Shown here in pieces: positions 4,263 through 52,299 of a stretch of DNA of 64,000 nucleotides. The notes under the pieces were generated by a model. That model was not told where the DNA came from and did not search any database. It was given only the letters and a program-made list of their open reading frames with translations. The stretch spans positions 1 through 64,000 of the forward strand of contig JAPKZB010000032.1 in the NCBI GenBank assembly GCA_026393985.1, in the 5' to 3' direction. The DNA is from Acidobacteriota bacterium. Its GTDB lineage: Bacteria; Acidobacteriota; Terriglobia; Bryobacterales; Bryobacteraceae. How positions within the stretch are numbered: the first letter of the stretch is position 1; each line of letters opens with the position of its first letter. Position numbers and translations under genes: made by a program.

Positions 4263-4440
4263 GAGCGTTCCGCCCTGAGCTTATCAGATCCGGCGAGGCG
4301 AACACGCTGCACCCTCTGGACGGCATCGCCCCCAACCAGACGCTGCGGCTCTCCACCCGACGGCTTCACGACCTAACAAAATAAACCCCATCTCTATCAT
4401 TCCAAAACACTTCCTCCCGTTTTCCGGCCCCGCCCCACCC

Positions 4441-4546
4441 CCGGAAATTTGGTCCCCCCGTGCTACAGTCCAAGCAGAGAAGAATCCCAACGCCCTGAAC
4501 GGCCAATCCCGTCAGGGCGTTTTTCTTTTCTTCGACGAGAATTCCC
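4441..4546 (+). promoter_or_regulatory. Structured leader A: extended -10, hairpin with T-tract, GAGAAT region
   Basis: TGCTACAGT (TACAGT at 4464-4469) resembles an extended -10 element. Just downstream is a perfect 9-bp stem, ACGCCCTGA (4490-4498) with TCAGGGCGT (4512-4520), a 13-base loop, and then T5-C-T4. This has the form of an intrinsic terminator, yet it lies between the presumed promoter and the start codon, so it would act as an attenuator. CGAGAATTCCC then leads into ATG 4547. Near-identical DNA precedes the decayed paralog at 46.57-46.67 kb (- strand), and the same layout precedes the AP2/HNH-like gene at 29.66 kb. From the end of the nitrilase gene (4263) to about 4440 I see nothing else. 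Confidence 0.6.
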
Positions 4547-5371
4547 ATGACCGACCAACTCACCGCCAAGGAAAAAACGGCTCGCCGCGCCGCCGGCAGC
4601 TGCCAGAACGCACCGAAAAACGCCTCCCAAACCAGGAGCCGCGGCATCGGACTCAAAGACACCGCCGAGACCGCCACCATCGACCTCGCCGCCGGCGCCG
4701 GTCTCACCCTGCTCACAAGCGAAAGCCCCGCGGCTTACGCCGAAATGACCGCCGAATACCAGCGCACCGTCGGACCCACCAACCGCGTTGAAGCTAGCAT
4801 CGTCCAGCGCATCGTCGACGCCCAGTGGCGCCTGCTCCGCATCACGCGTCTGCAGACCCTCGAAATCGAATCCGGCTTTGAAGAGGTCCGCCAGATCGAT
4901 CACCCCGGTCTGCCCGACTGCGGCGTCGCCCTCGCCGATGCCCTCGGAGCCAACCGGGTCGCCGACGACGCCAAGTACATCCGTCGCCTCGAGCGCGAAG
5001 AGACTCGCCTCCTCCGCGTCATCAAGATGACCTACAGCGAACTCAAGGAGCTCCGCAAACTCAATCCGCTGCCCGTGCCGCCGGTTCGTCATCGGATCGA
5101 ATGCATCGGAGAGCCAGCCGCCATCATGACCGAAACCCACCAGGCGCTAGCCCGCCAAGCCAGCGCCGAAGAATCCACGCCAGCCGCCGAGACCACGCAA
5201 CCCGTTGAAAAAGCAGAGGTAGTGCCCCCCAGCCCAAACGACCGAAGCCAACTGGCCCCCGAGCTTCCGCACTACCCCAAACCCCTCGGCCTCTGGCTCG
5301 CACAGCCGACCAAGCCCAAAACCTTCGCCGCCGGCACCGGCGGCCTTTACGGAGAACTGGAACCCGTATAA
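4547..5371 (+). CDS. Uncharacterised protein of a paralogous family with repeat-derived 3' end
   Basis: Function unknown. The 274-aa product has a basic, low-complexity N-terminus, a conserved central part (about residues 60-165) with PTNRVEASIVQRI, DAQWRLLRITRLQTLEIE and YIRRLEREETRL, predicted to be helical, and a Pro/Glu-rich tail containing NDRSQLA. The centre resembles a widespread but unnamed family in Acidobacteria and Planctomycetes, where many copies per genome share a PT-R-lV-Q-A-WRLRR core (from memory, not searched). A second, decayed copy lies at 45.7-46.6 kb. The start is fixed by the conserved leader and GAGAATTCCC before ATG 4547. The NDRSQ codons belong to a repeat that continues past the stop codon, so the tail was probably longer in the ancestor. 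Confidence 0.7.
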   Translation: MTDQLTAKEKTARRAAGSCQNAPKNASQTRSRGIGLKDTAETATIDLAAGAGLTLLTSESPAAYAEMTAEYQRTVGPTNRVEASIVQRIVDAQWRLLRITRLQTLEIESGFEEVRQIDHPGLPDCGVALADALGANRVADDAKYIRRLEREETRLLRVIKMTYSELKELRKLNPLPVPPVRHRIECIGEPAAIMTETHQALARQASAEESTPAAETTQPVEKAEVVPPSPNDRSQLAPELPHYPKPLGLWLAQPTKPKTFAAGTGGLYGELEPV

Positions 5372-20081: not shown

Positions 20082-21152
20082 ATGAAACGATTCTTCAGCG
20101 TCACCCTATCCCTGGCTCTTCTCGCCCTCGCCTGGCACCTCGCCCCGGGCGGCGCCACCTCCGCTCTTGGCCAAGCCGGCAACATCAGCGGCCAAGGCAA
20201 ATACAAGTTCCGCGTTCTGTTCAACTCCTCCCACCTTCCCGCCGAAGCGCAGAAGGTTCTGAAGGCCGCCCACGGCGGCTTCGCCATCGACAGCCGCAAG
20301 GGCAAAGGCGATATCTACTTCGCCCTGCCGGGCGCCGGCATCATTCAGATCAGCTCGGACCTGAAGTCCACCAAGATGCTGCCCACCGACCCGGCTATGC
20401 GCGATACCAACATGCACAACGCCCTGTTCTGGAAGGCCAAGGACGGCACCCCGCTGCTCTCCTTCCCCGGGAACTCGGTCGGCAAGATCTTCACTACCGC
20501 CATGGACGGCAAGCTCCTCGGCACGCTCAACGCCCCGGCGGCGAACACCGACATGGGCAACCCCACGGCCAACGCCTACTTCGCCGGCGGCGGCGCCTTC
20601 GTGCCCACCGACGTCGAACAGCTCGAGGGCATGTTCTACATTCCCACCGGCTACTCGAAGCTCGACTACGTGTTGACGGCGAAGGTCAACTCGGTCAGCC
20701 CCTTTGATGCATCCTGGAACCCGCTCGCCTTCGGTGGCCGCGGCACCGGCCCCGGCCAGCTCGGCACCGGCCACGGCATCGCCATTCCCCGTGGCACCAC
20801 CCGTATCGACGTCGCCGACCGGCCCAACTCGGAAATCGACCGCTACAGCCGCACCGGCGAGTATCTGTCCACCCTGAGCCTGCCCAAGGGCTCCTTCCCC
20901 TGCGACATCCAGTACCTCGATAAGTTCGCCGTCGTCGGCGCGCTGCATGGGCCGGACCGCAGCAAGGGCGCGCCCATCTACCTGCTCGAGAACGACCAGG
21001 TGGTCTCCACCATCATGCCCAAGGAAGAGCTGGGCCTGTCCAACTTCCAGCACATCCACAACGCTGTCATCAAGAAGCAGGGCGGCAAGCTGTTCATCAT
21101 CGCACAGGCCTGGAATCCGGGCGACTTCGCGATCCTCGAACAGGTGAAGTAA
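20082..21152 (+). CDS. Secreted NHL / six-bladed beta-propeller protein
   Basis: A 356-aa secreted protein. The signal peptide covers about 33 residues (SVTLSLALLALAWHL, cleavage near ALGQAG). The rest shows propeller-like repeats, including GGRGTGPGQLGTGHGIAI, a linker characteristic of NHL/6-bladed propellers, followed by IDVADRPNSEIDRYSRTG. No catalytic residues are evident; a binding or scaffold role is likely. Initiation at ATG 20082 follows GGGGAGGC at 20065-20072. Its last 27 codons (from 21072, KKQGGKLF onward) are the source of two degenerate copies in the array downstream. It converges on the uridine kinase gene. Confidence 0.8.
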   Translation: MKRFFSVTLSLALLALAWHLAPGGATSALGQAGNISGQGKYKFRVLFNSSHLPAEAQKVLKAAHGGFAIDSRKGKGDIYFALPGAGIIQISSDLKSTKMLPTDPAMRDTNMHNALFWKAKDGTPLLSFPGNSVGKIFTTAMDGKLLGTLNAPAANTDMGNPTANAYFAGGGAFVPTDVEQLEGMFYIPTGYSKLDYVLTAKVNSVSPFDASWNPLAFGGRGTGPGQLGTGHGIAIPRGTTRIDVADRPNSEIDRYSRTGEYLSTLSLPKGSFPCDIQYLDKFAVVGALHGPDRSKGAPIYLLENDQVVSTIMPKEELGLSNFQHIHNAVIKKQGGKLFIIAQAWNPGDFAILEQVK

Positions 21153-21660
21153 GGCTGCTTGGTGGTTTACGCGTCGAGACCGTGGCGCAACACGGTCTCG
21201 ACCGACTCATTGAGCTGCACGTCACACCCGCAGCAGAAAGCCCGCGTGCCGCTTGGTGGGCAGAAAGAAGCACTCGGCCTTGGGCCGGAAGAAGCAGGGC
21301 GGCAAGCTGTTCCTCATCGCGCAGGCCTGAAACCCCAGCGACTTCGCGATCCTCGAACAGGTGAAGTAGTCCGGCCTTGCGCCCTGGACGTCGAGACCGT
21401 GCCGCGGCACGGTCTCGACGGATTCCTCAAGCTGCCCGCCCCCGCAGCACAAGGCCCGCGTGCCGCTTGGTGGGCAGAAGGAAGCGTTCGGCCCCGGGCC
21501 GAAAGAAGCAGGGCGGCAAGCTGAGCTCCTCGAACAGGTGCAGTAATCCCGCCTCGCGGCCTAAGTGTCGAGCCCGTGGCGCAACACGGTCTCGACCGAC
21601 TCATCGAGCTGCCCGTCTCCCCGCACCACCAGGTGCGCGTGCCGTTTGGTGGGAAGGATG
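21072..21660. repeat. Tandem array made of fused 3' ends of the two convergent flanking genes
   Basis: The region contains three copies of the NHL-gene tail (21072-21152 genuine; 21289-21369; 21503-21545, internally deleted by about 40 bases) alternating with three copies of the uridine-kinase tail (about 21167-21288; 21384-21502; and the genuine end from 21561). Unit spacing measured at GTCGAG is 217 bases (21173 to 21390) and 177 bases (21390 to 21567). Each kinase-tail copy begins with an inverted repeat: GTCGAGACCGTG with CACGGTCTCGAC, perfect at 21173-21202 and 21390-21419, and with one mismatch at 21567-21596. The stretch 21153-21560 has no gene; it is fully accounted for by this array. 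Confidence 0.85.
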
Positions 21661-29380: not shown

Positions 29381-29539
29381 GACTTACTCCAACCGAAAGC
29401 GGGGCAGCGGCAGGAGGCTCCCGCAAAGTTTTGTAGCCGGAAAAATGGGGTTCACGACCTGTCGATATTTTTTATCTGTTTTCTTTACAATATTTTGCGA
29501 AGATTTTCCAGAGGCCGTGGTTCGGAATCGGTGGCTCGT

Positions 29540-29655
29540 TCGCTAGACTGCGGGTAGCGGTAGGCAACACGCCCCGGCACTTCTTCAAACGGCTCTTCGG
29601 AGCGGTTGGAACAAGTGACCGGGGCGTTTGTGTTTGCACCGCGAGGAGAATCCCC
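29540..29655 (+). promoter_or_regulatory. Structured leader B': large hairpin before the AP2/HNH-like gene
   Basis: GCTAGACTGCGG (TAGACT, -10-like) is followed by a hairpin whose 9-bp base, ACGCCCCGG (29569-29577) with CCGGGGCGT (29619-29627), is perfect. It extends through CACTT/AAGTG to an inner stem AACGGCTC (29588-29595), TTCG loop, GAGCGGTT (29600-29607) with one mismatch. TTTGTGTTTG follows, then GAGGAGAATCCCC and ATG 29656. Layout and several short sequences match the leader at 4441-4546 although the protein encoded is unrelated. The rest of the 29381-29539 gap is AT-rich around 29470-29515 (possible promoter DNA); nothing else is recognisable. Confidence 0.55.
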
Positions 29656-30471
29656 ATGTCCCAATCCCTTGTCCCCCAAGAGTTACTCGCGCCCCTCGAG
29701 GCCTCCCGCCGTGTGATGGAATTCCATGGCCGTAAGATCGATCTGACCCGCTACTCCGCCCGGTCCATCTGGCTGAGCCTGACCAACCGTAACGGTAAAC
29801 CGGGCACTTCGACGCGGGGGATCACGTTCCATCCAGAACGGCAGGTATGGCAAGTTCGTTTCAACAGCCTGCTGGTGGCTTCGGCGCCGCACGCCGCCGA
29901 AGCCCGCCTGCTGCAGTTGCAGTTCCTCCACCAGGCCTTTGGAAAGCTCGGTCTGGAGTTGGACCGCATCTCCCGGCTGCAGCCGTACGTCGATGGCGAC
30001 ACTGGCTACCTGCCGCTGCCGGATGGCCGGTTAGCCCTGGTCGACGCCGCCGAGTTTGGCCGATGCGCCAACCGCAACTGGTTCGTGAAGGAAGGCTGCG
30101 TGCAATCGAAGATTCGCGGGCGCCACGTGGCGCTCTACCGCCTCGTGCTCGGCAACGAGCTGCCCAAGCTGATCAAGCCGGTCTACCACGACGGAGACCG
30201 GTTGAACTGCCGCCAGAGCAACCTGGGAGTGGCCAACTACGCCGAGGCTAACTGGTCCGGCCGGAAGATCGCCAAGAAGACGACCTCGGACTACAAAGGC
30301 GTCTCCTGGGCCAAGGGGCAGGCGCTTTGGCGGGCCAAGATCCGGAAAGACGGCAAGATGTTTCCGCTGGGAGATTTCCGCAGCGAGTGGGCGGCGGCCA
30401 GGGCCTACGACGAAGCGGCCCGGGAACTGTTCGGCGAGTTTGCGGCGCTGAACTTCCCGCGGCCGGGCGAG

Positions 30472-33344
<2,873 letters not shown>

Positions 33345-45667: not shown

Positions 45668-46110
45668 TTCGGTCCTTGGGGTGTTTCCTCTAAGATTTCG
45701 TTTTTTCACTGGCTTAGCCGCGAAGGAACGCACTCATACGGGTTCTGGGGCCAGGCAGAGGCCGGCGCCGGGGGATTGGCTTCGGTCGCTGCCTTCCGGG
45801 GTAGTTTTCTTACTATTTGCAATGGTTTGCGGGGTAGTAGAGATCCAGAGAGCGACCTTGGTTTTCGGCGGGGCGACTGCGGGCGGGAAGGTGCAGCACC
45901 AGCCGGCGAGCTGGCTTCGGTCGTTAGCGGCGGGGGTGGTTTGCTTATTGTTTATAACGGGTTGCGGGGTTTTGGAAATCTCGGGGCGCGCAGCGGGTTG
46001 GGCGATGGGGGAGATTTCCGGGACGGCGGTTTCAGCCCTGGGCGCGGCGGCGACGGGTTGGACGGTGGAGCACCAGCCGGCGAGTTGGCTTCGGTCGTTG
46101 GCAGCCGGGG
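45668..46110 (-). repeat. Tandem repeat (about 135 bp unit) at the 3' end of the second orphan-family locus
   Basis: The core TTCGGTCG, the complement of CGACCGAA in the 5.2-5.7 kb repeat, recurs at 46090, 45916, 45781 and, degenerate, 45668; in gene direction the intervals are 174, 135 and 113 bases. The first three units are in frame and encode AANDRSQLAGWC twice and a variant GSDRSQSPG; the last is beyond the stop. The first two intervals nearly equal those at the other locus (170 and 136), so the repeat structure predates divergence of the two copies. Confidence 0.75.
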
Positions 46111-46566
46111 TGGTTTGCTGAGCGTTTACAACGGGTTGCAGTAATTCGGGAGTTTCCGGCGCTTCGAGGGCGCGGGCGAGGATCCTCTTTATTTTGTTGT
46201 ATTCGAGGCGGGGGATCACCGGCGGCTTGAGTTGGCGGGTGTACTTGGCATTGGCGCTTAGGCGGTTGGCGGCCGCCCTATGAATTTCGCAGGCGGCGGC
46301 GTGGGTTAAGCCGGGGTATTGGTCTTCGCGGGCGCCGTCGAGGCAGGTCTCCATTTCGAGAGTCTGGAGACGGGAGTTGCGGAGCGGGCGCCACTGGGCG
46401 TCGATGGGGAGTTGGACGATGCCGACTTCGAGCCGGTTGGTGGGGGCTACGTCGTCGTGGTACTCGGCGTCGTCTTCCCCGGCGAGGAGGGCGAGACCGG
46501 GGGCGTGGCTGAGGTTGATTGCGGCGCGGTGGACCTGTTTTGCCTGGGGCCGATTTGGTCGGGTAT
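45734..46566 (-). pseudogene. Decayed paralog of the orphan gene at 4547-5371
   Basis: In the position of the start codon, after a leader almost identical to that at 4441-4546, is ATA (46566-46564) followed by CCCGACCAA where the intact copy has ATGACCGACCAA. A frameshift follows within about 20 bases. In the second frame the family core is readable: AAINLSHAPGLALLAGEDD, PTNRLEVGIVQLPIDAQW, RLQTLEMETCLDG, then a helical part and the NDRSQLAGW repeats to the stop at 45734. A 206-residue open frame from ATG 46354 remains and could still be translated, but it lacks the conserved N-terminus. Loss of the start plus frameshift argues for a pseudogene. Confidence 0.65.
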
Positions 46567-46670
46567 CGGAATTCTCCCCAAGGAAGCAGAAAACGCCCTG
46601 ACGGGTTGGCCAGTCAGGACGTAGGGTTCCTTGTCTGCTTGGACTGTAGCATGGAAGGACCAGATTTCCG
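46567..46670 (-). promoter_or_regulatory. Structured leader A2, close copy of the leader at 4441-4546
   Basis: Reading on the minus strand: an extended -10 TGCTACAGT (TACAGT at 46648-46643), then ACGTCCTGAC (46622-46613), a 10-base loop, GTCAGGGCGT (46602-46593) and TTTT-C-T-rich sequence, then GAGAATTCCG before the mutated start. The stem is ten pairs with one G-U. Sequence matches the other copy from CCGGAAAT through AGTCCAAGCAGA and around the hairpin, although the gene behind it is broken. The gap to the divergent gene at 46858 (46671-46857) shows nothing else I can name. Confidence 0.6.
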
Positions 46671-46857
46671 GGGGGTGACGGGGGGTGAAAAACTTGGTTA
46701 AGTGTCTTGGAATGATGGGGCTGGGAATTATTCTTTCAGGTTGTGAAGCCGGTTGGAAGACAGCGACTAACTCGGTGGGGTGACACGGCGGGGTGGCTAC
46801 GCTGGTAGGATGTTGGGTTCGCGCGTGGCGCGAAAGTCTGCGGAGAGGCATAGGCGA

Positions 46858-52214: not shown

Positions 52215-52299
52215 GAAACTCCTGAGGCCGGGAAACTCCTGAGGCCGGGAAACTCCTGAGGCCGGGAAACTCCTGAGGCCGGGAAACTCCTGAGGCCAG
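52215..52299 (-). repeat. Five tandem 17-bp repeats carrying the ribosome-binding site of TonB receptor 4
   Basis: On the minus strand the unit is CCGGCCTCAGGAGTTTC. Units lie at 52283-52299 (one mismatch), 52266-52282, 52249-52265, 52232-52248 and 52215-52231, ending two bases before the ATG. Each copy holds AGGAG, so the messenger would carry five Shine-Dalgarno sequences in a row. The gap from 52300 to the stop of the next gene (52306) is six bases, so the promoter must lie inside that gene. Confidence 0.95.

Follow-up and report, generated by a model that had tools for sequence, protein, structure and literature searches.

A promoter–hairpin leader carried by a dispersed gene family of Bryobacterales and found before a few unrelated genes: a candidate mobile attenuator

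Why should a hairpin shaped like a transcription terminator stand between a predicted promoter and the start codon of a gene, and do so more than once? The question is raised by the window, the whole 64,000-nucleotide stretch of DNA analysed here, in which a first-pass annotation had noticed such a leader before two related genes and before an unrelated gene of AP2/HNH type. The related genes belong to what is called here the STGP family, after the motif STGP[RK]T.EGK of its proteins. The parts of the three leaders and the genes that follow them are these:

4365–4411, plus strand: upstream element starting TTCAC, the left end of a repeated unit (TTCAC in 13 of 14 related copies)
4461–4469, plus strand: extended -10 box TGCTACAGT of a predicted promoter, predicted start A4476 (CAG); TANNNT is constant in 25 sister leaders
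4489–4521, plus strand: terminator-like hairpin AACGCCCTGA/TCAGGGCGTT, found by folding; stem near-constant in 19 subfamily copies
4520–4529, plus strand: T-tract 3' of the stem, read from the sequence; TTTT constant in the 19 copies
4537–4541, plus strand: GAGAA, resembling a ribosome site, read from the sequence
4547–5371, plus strand: degenerate STGP-family ORF of 274 aa, by sequence comparison
46696–46751, minus strand: second copy's upstream element, with TTCAC at 46747
46643–46651, minus strand: TGCTACAGT, extended -10 box of the minus-strand copy, read from the sequence
46593–46622, minus strand: hairpin ACGTCCTGA/TCAGGGCGT of the second copy, by folding and pattern match
46223–46566, minus strand: STGP-family pseudogene, start codon lost (ATA, 46566–46564)
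29447–29502, plus strand: the AP2/HNH gene's upstream element, with TTCAC at 29451
29544–29549, plus strand: -10 box TAGACT, predicted start A29556; TA.ACT in eight orthologues
29557–29642, plus strand: outer stem GCGG/CCGC, by which the predicted 5' end pairs with the bases that precede the ribosome site
29569–29627, plus strand: hairpin ACGCCCCGG/CCGGGGCGT before the AP2/HNH gene
29656–30540, plus strand: AP2 and HNH gene, 294 aa

All three hairpins are present where they had been reported and lie far from chance expectation. Folding of each leader between its predicted start and its start codon gives, against dinucleotide shuffles, z = -4.6 (4476–4549, plus strand), -3.2 (46564–46638, minus strand) and -4.6 (29556–29658, plus strand). 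When the exact stem pattern is searched for with a loop of 12 bases and at most two mismatches, one match is returned, the minus-strand copy, where shuffles predict 0.00. In 464 kb of the same genome (the window and 20 further stretches; 928 kb of strand) there are 24 terminator-like hairpins with the perfect 8-bp stem required by the scan, a requirement that makes the minus-strand copy invisible to it. Three of the 24 precede a ribosome site and start codon: both plus-strand leaders, and one in locus L187 where, by our reading, a -10-like TATGCT is located 3' of the hairpin. A loose hairpin threshold is passed by 15 of 143 ORFs from the flanks of related loci and the window, a control set that includes many mechanical ORFs; the 15 include both plus-strand leaders, and without these two there are 13 of 141, which look like weak hairpins or hairpins of coding regions. 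A consensus promoter scan near the plus-strand STGP copy found only one promoter-like site, at 4373–4400 within the upstream element, and the terminator rule of that scan, which takes loops of 3–8, did not list the hairpin at 4489. Neither the window nor 10 further loci matched Rfam, with its riboswitches, T-boxes, leader peptides and other leaders, at the gathering score.

The plus- and minus-strand STGP leaders had been called near-identical from the -10 box through to the start codon. They do carry the same extended -10 box, but their identity is 81%, the minus-strand stem has one change, retained as a G-U pair, and the minus-strand start codon is gone. Both window copies are decayed, one having lost its start codon and the other its motif: the plus-strand ORF reads SCQNAPKNASQTRSRG in place of the RQNAQKSTGPKTEAG of intact copies, the latter translated from DNA. 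The AP2/HNH leader has the same plan as the other two and, weakly, the same upstream element, but not near-identical DNA. The tail of the minus-strand copy contains three tandem partial repeats (45767–46154), and in L025 and L026 repeated 3' segments resembling them stand after the stop codon of the STGP gene.

The family to which these decayed genes belong is large. Intact proteins start with MPDQLTPEQKKARRAEINRQNAQKSTGPKTEAG (translated from DNA of the same genome), and the window leader has five close copies in its own genome, three of them at contig ends. A paralogue query found matches in at least 36 of 61 genomes, its own counted; the best 80 of 370 place relatives in Acidobacteriota, in Planctomycetota and in other phyla, and 32 viral contigs also carry relatives, mostly as short-motif matches. 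Positions N, STGP, T, G, W and R are invariant in 44 aligned proteins, although for the STGP[RK]T part this is a selection effect, because the loci were chosen by that pattern. Apart from a SEC-C motif in one, the members scanned have no Pfam or NCBIfam match above curated cut-off, and the predicted fold of one protein (L063; pLDDT 83, all helical) has no Foldseek match at E ≤ 0.001 in PDB or viral models.

Does the leader recur with this family beyond the window? Among loci L032–L141, with a hairpin called at -8 kcal/mol or lower and no more than 130 nt from the chosen start, 26 of 97 STGP genes are preceded by a terminator-like hairpin, all of them in Acidobacteriota records or genomes of the window's kin, while every Planctomycetota locus is among the 71 genes without one. 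At least three leaders were missed in this set (L038, L039, L071), an inner start codon having been chosen. Of 40 further loci, 36 were readable; 17 of these have a hairpin and 19 have none. One genome, G025, contributed 15 STGP genes that were read, of which 14 have no hairpin (one with its upstream sequence masked) and the other, L194, has one.

A covariance model was built from 25 aligned sister leaders, none of them from the window; its consensus has 10 pairs, two of which show double changes (AU to GC and GC to AU). In the window's own genome it finds eight sites at E < 0.1, namely seven leaders (C17, C32, C35, C34, C23, C20 and C55), all before STGP genes, and an antisense echo of C17, which is itself a training sequence. 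C35 and C34 precede a diverged member with SKGPVT in the motif, absent among the protein-search matches listed. Over 61 genomes there are 81 matches at E ≤ 0.01, spread through 19 genomes. One antisense echo was dropped and 80 were inspected, 25 at training loci and 55 elsewhere. The gene that follows has the strict STGP motif in 53, including all 25 training loci. The classes beyond these were assigned by eye: 11 clear STGP genes, cut by a contig end or altered in the motif; three probable degenerate STGP genes; three HTH proteins and six unclear short ORFs in G053 and G044, genomes of another family; two occurrences of one other small protein (G006, G013); and two hairpins alone.

The idea of a recurrent cassette tied to a proliferating gene family is thus borne out, in that 39 of the 55 non-training matches (28 with the strict motif and 11 clear cases, with three more probable) precede an STGP-type gene. 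So is its occurrence before unrelated genes: all eight AP2/HNH orthologues have a leader hairpin, and HTH proteins follow three matches in the two genomes of another family. The first-pass annotation had proposed a covariance search and had named a lack of recurrence or covariation, or transcription starting 3' of the hairpin, as telling against it; the hairpin does recur, its stems change with pairing kept, and the gap between stem and start codon described below is almost too short for a promoter. The search itself is positive for the sister leaders, but the window's own two STGP leaders and the AP2/HNH leader are unmatched at E ≤ 10, nor are the AP2/HNH orthologues among the matches listed at E ≤ 0.01 in the 61 genomes. 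In the window's subfamily (19 copies) the stem is almost unchanged and the loops are variable.

Because the model missed the AP2/HNH leader, the tie between that leader and those of the STGP genes rests on the common plan and the upstream element. The AP2/HNH protein matches Pfam AP2 (E 5.8e-8) and a PHROG HNH endonuclease (E 4.6e-22), with Pfam HNH_3 below cut-off, and its gene has a single match in each of eight of the 61 genomes, all of the same genus. A middle pair is changed from G-C to C-G in two of the eight orthologues and broken in two others. The outer GCGG/CCGC stem, of four pairs, begins one base after the predicted start, encloses the hairpin and is unchanged in all eight. A model of the TTCAC element built without the AP2 copy places the AP2/HNH site third-best in 464 kb (E 1.3), behind both STGP copies, and one built without any window sequence places it second-best (E 3.1); such a match would be weak alone, yet it falls at the expected place. 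L308, L334 and L298, in G053 and G044, encode solitary HTH-like proteins behind the same promoter–hairpin plan. Pfam HTH matches are below cut-off for two of the three, and the stretches examined around them contain no terminase-like gene.

The anatomy of the leader can be read from the model matches. A hairpin followed by at least five T in the next eight bases was found in 71 of the 80, with a median of -23.4 kcal/mol. These leaders contain 37 distinct 7-bp core stems; the stem sequences differ, and the position of the stem and the T-tract persist. The eight bases after the last G-C pair hold 5.6 T on average against 1.0 in a control stretch, five or more T being the condition of detection. 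Of the 71, 68 have a TANNNT box, invariant in the 25 sister leaders, 3–24 nt before the stem, and in 38 of these 68 CAG occupies -1/+1/+2. The stem follows the predicted start at a distance of 0–14 nt in 68 of 69 leaders; in the remaining one, L296, the distance is 23 nt. Counted from a start at CAG, the stem would open at about +1 to +15, and the T-tract would reach to between +40 and +55 or so. Between the last G-C pair and the start codon there is a median of 30 nt (5–95%: 20–35), so a downstream promoter has hardly any room.

The sister leaders have no -35 box at the usual spacing; what is conserved is TANNNT, preceded in 45 of 48 instances by TTG at 6–9 nt, which is not the -35 position. 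They keep TTGAC (for example in L032–L037 and L217) 7–8 bases before the -10 box, again not at -35 distance. A promoter score with spacers of 16–19 nt gave a median of 9.0 against 7.5 in shuffles, 24% of which reach 9.0; its -35 picks are not -35-like, and it was set aside in favour of the analysis of the -10 box and start.

A hairpin with a T-tract resembles any intrinsic terminator, 24 of which were counted above, and might be no more than the ordinary terminator of the upstream gene, lying before an ORF by chance. The TANNNT box at most 24 nt from the stem, the CAG at the expected start, the short distance from stem to start codon and the constancy of the leader while left flanks differ all speak against such a coincidence, which we find hardly credible.

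The closeness of the hairpin to the predicted 5' end raises a weightier alternative. In ompA-like stabilisers, a 5'-terminal stem protects the mRNA. If the message here were to start inside the stem, its end would be shielded from 5'-end-dependent decay, and the T-tract would be the far side of an A/T-extended stem. The predicted pairing probability of bases +1 to +6 is 0.60 in the genus (68 leaders) against 0.51 when the 5' segment alone is permuted, and 0.76 against 0.55 in G053 and G044 (nine leaders). An outer stem surrounds the hairpin in all eight AP2/HNH leaders. The T-tract has been lost from some leaders with the stem kept: several hairpins in G053 and G044 are followed by just three T or by GTTCC, the 5'-terminal hairpin persisting, and these would be poor terminators, which favours a stabiliser. 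The T-tract of the genus, on the other hand, is very constant and extends beyond the pairing (TTTTTCTTTT in the window copy; 6–7 T in L108, L117 and L127), and the start sites on which the pairing figures depend are predicted ones. The 5'-terminal position and the leaders that have a stem but no T-tract make stabilisation a serious rival, possible though on balance unlikely.

The unit often has a second gene. Behind one own-genome STGP tail (C59) stands a gene like that for the terminase large subunit (TerL), with Pfam Terminase_6N above cut-off and a PHROG match at E 1e-32; the best PHROG terminase large subunit matches of three such proteins range from E 1e-32 to 1e-40. Relatives occur in at least 20 of 41 genomes, with up to at least 23 matches per genome, pieces counted. 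Forty distinct TerL loci were assembled from returned loci and 20 chosen stretches, some picked for a known STGP leader. Eleven are too short upstream to judge, and in 28 of the other 29, which include some orthologous pairs, an STGP gene lies upstream, within 230 nt in 25 and at 674–837 nt in three. A hairpin of -12 kcal/mol or better occurs in the stretch tested at 18 of the 28, in some cases in coding DNA, and 10 are without one. Clustering of the neighbours at 80 STGP loci had given no recurrent partner beyond the STGP family itself, the others looking like overlapping reading frames and common genes; the link to TerL surfaced only with a TerL query. At G000:C29:125043-128323 a terminase-like gene is apparently split, its pieces about 2 kb apart, with a TTCAC-type element near the second piece.

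In gene order and TerL homology the pair is like the small and large terminase subunits of phages. Of four phage proteins with the STGP motif, one (L159) matches a PHROG terminase small subunit (E 1e-6). Eight phage downstream ORFs gave no Pfam match at E ≤ 0.001, and of two of these eight compared with PHROGs one matches the terminase large subunit. A PHROG search of nine chromosomal STGP proteins found no terminase, the five TerL-paired ones among them matching no PHROG. Position and the one phage link suggest that the STGP protein is probably terminase-small-subunit-like. Unlike a phage terminase pair, the chromosomal pair occurs in many copies per chromosome, and no virion gene was matched among 13 flanking ORFs scanned from 18 selected as the longest on each side of nine units. 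It is also unlike an insertion sequence or transposon in that the STGP and TerL-like proteins scanned have no transposase match; its left end is sharp.

That left end defines the unit. A blast search of five related genomes with the window locus returned many paralogous copies. Of 14 related copies, seven align from exactly window position 4365 and the others start 3–51 nt further in; the one copy that departs from TTCAC has GTAAC. With the five copies of the window's own genome, the left flanks of 19 copies form 13 groups, or 12 with L362 and L366, whose alignment extends 160 nt further left, counted as one. In some groups the copies have a common left flank and are thus orthologues or later duplicates. 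Since the copies have a common left end, the leader travels inside the repeated unit. At the right, homology stops at the last stop codon or within about 25 nt of it in several copies and TerL units, and runs 110–140 nt past the stop in three own-genome tails. No target-site duplication and no empty site was found at the copies examined; the window locus in G010, considered as an empty site, holds a remnant of the same copy. In L354, L415 and L239 some STGP/TerL units are immediately followed or preceded by a palindrome-like repeat of the GCGCACAGG..GTCCGTTGTGCGC kind, which may be a second small repeat family.

In the window's subfamily the hairpin lies about 125–155 nt inside the left end. 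IS200/IS605 elements carry subterminal hairpins as recognition sites, and the present hairpin, which travels with a terminase-like gene pair, could be a DNA or RNA site recognised by the unit's own proteins, for mobility rather than expression, or a packaging site. The stem sequence varies across subfamilies, however, whereas the positions of the -10 box, T-tract and ribosome site are conserved, and a leader hairpin is also present at the AP2/HNH gene, which is single-copy. We regard a recognition site as very unlikely.

The explanation that we favour, with somewhat better than even confidence, is that the leader is a promoter-proximal attenuator or insulator of a mobile gene family, a "mobile attenuator". 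It would be the 5' control region of a dispersed unit that is spreading through the chromosomes of Bryobacterales, or did so in the past. The unit starts at TTCAC and has a predicted promoter with a strong -10 box; its message would begin at or just before the GC-rich hairpin, after which come the T-tract, the ribosome site and the STGP gene, often with the TerL-like gene behind it. Hairpin and T-tract would most likely end most transcripts after about 40–55 nt, whether these start at the unit's own promoter or enter from neighbouring genes, and copies would then be weakly expressed at any landing site. The purpose of the hairpin is thus probably to keep the STGP genes and a few unrelated genes turned down. 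It may be overridden by a trans factor, and it would be a constitutive attenuator or insulator rather than a riboswitch-type leader, since most leaders lack an upstream stretch that could serve as a switching partner; with the predicted start 0–14 nt from the stem, an antiterminator or sensor is without room in 68 of 69. Longer stretches precede the terminator-like hairpin in L387, L395, L417/L418 (TerL-paired) and L296, with a small extra hairpin in places, and there an alternative fold is possible. A constitutive early terminator that lowers the unit's own expression and blocks read-through from neighbours would suit a repeated unit and has a precedent in 5' terminators of IS genes (PMC2965389). 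Against an attenuator stand the double changes in just two of 10 stem pairs of the main clade, a stem that barely varies in the window's subfamily, and the many STGP genes without a hairpin (71 of 97 and 19 of 36).

Comparable arrangements are known. In IS200 and Tn10, leader RNA structure guards the mobile gene from outside promoters. The structure described here is likewise tied to a mobile gene, an expression-limiting role being our proposal; unlike those, the hairpin lies between its own predicted promoter and the ribosome site, and in the window folds it is itself unpaired with the ribosome site. Closer still are the 5' terminators of mobile genes termed "mobile attenuators", of which class 1 belongs to insertion-sequence genes and a second class precedes unrelated genes (Naville and Gautheret 2010, PMC2965389); those named there belong to transposase or IS families of Enterobacteria, bacilli and others. 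As in class 1 so described, a terminator-shaped hairpin lies in the 5' leader between the predicted promoter and the first gene of a dispersed, multi-copy element with differing flanks (12–13 among 19 copies). The present leader differs from those cases in serving an STGP/terminase-like family of Bryobacterales, with a similar leader before AP2/HNH and HTH genes. The remark in the first-pass annotation that no description of the leader was known must therefore be divided: nothing in the literature searched was recognised as the STGP family or as a stand-alone terminase-pair family, but the kind of leader has been described under the name of mobile attenuators. Relative to the literature searched, the STGP gene family, its terminase pairing and a leader common to unrelated genes are new. 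The ISPpu9 transposase gene also has a structured 5'-UTR, in a system to which two small RNAs belong (PMC8450116), and thus offers another structured 5'-UTR on a repeated mobile gene.

A more far-reaching view would join two proposals, that the STGP and TerL pair has turned into a mobile element of the chromosome, capsid-free and fixed at its left end, and that the promoter–hairpin leader defines a small regulon (STGP/TerL, the AP2/HNH nuclease and HTH proteins) whose members a single trans-acting factor, acting by antitermination or RNA binding, would release together. The combination seems doubtful, and each part would have its own consequence. If terminase-like pairs move without a capsid, they would be mobile elements of a new kind; should the shared leader mark a regulon, it would reveal how such genes are silenced and released by host or element. 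The fixed left end, the searchable leader and the phage-packaging partner give a handle on a large repeated family of soil Acidobacteriota.

The window contains other small repeats. Three direct repeats, imperfect and each containing a palindrome of the type GTCGAGACCGTG..CACGGTCTCGAC, lie at 21133–21622, and at 52215–52299 the 17-base unit GAAACTCCTGAGGCCGG occurs five times head-to-tail, with one change in the last copy.
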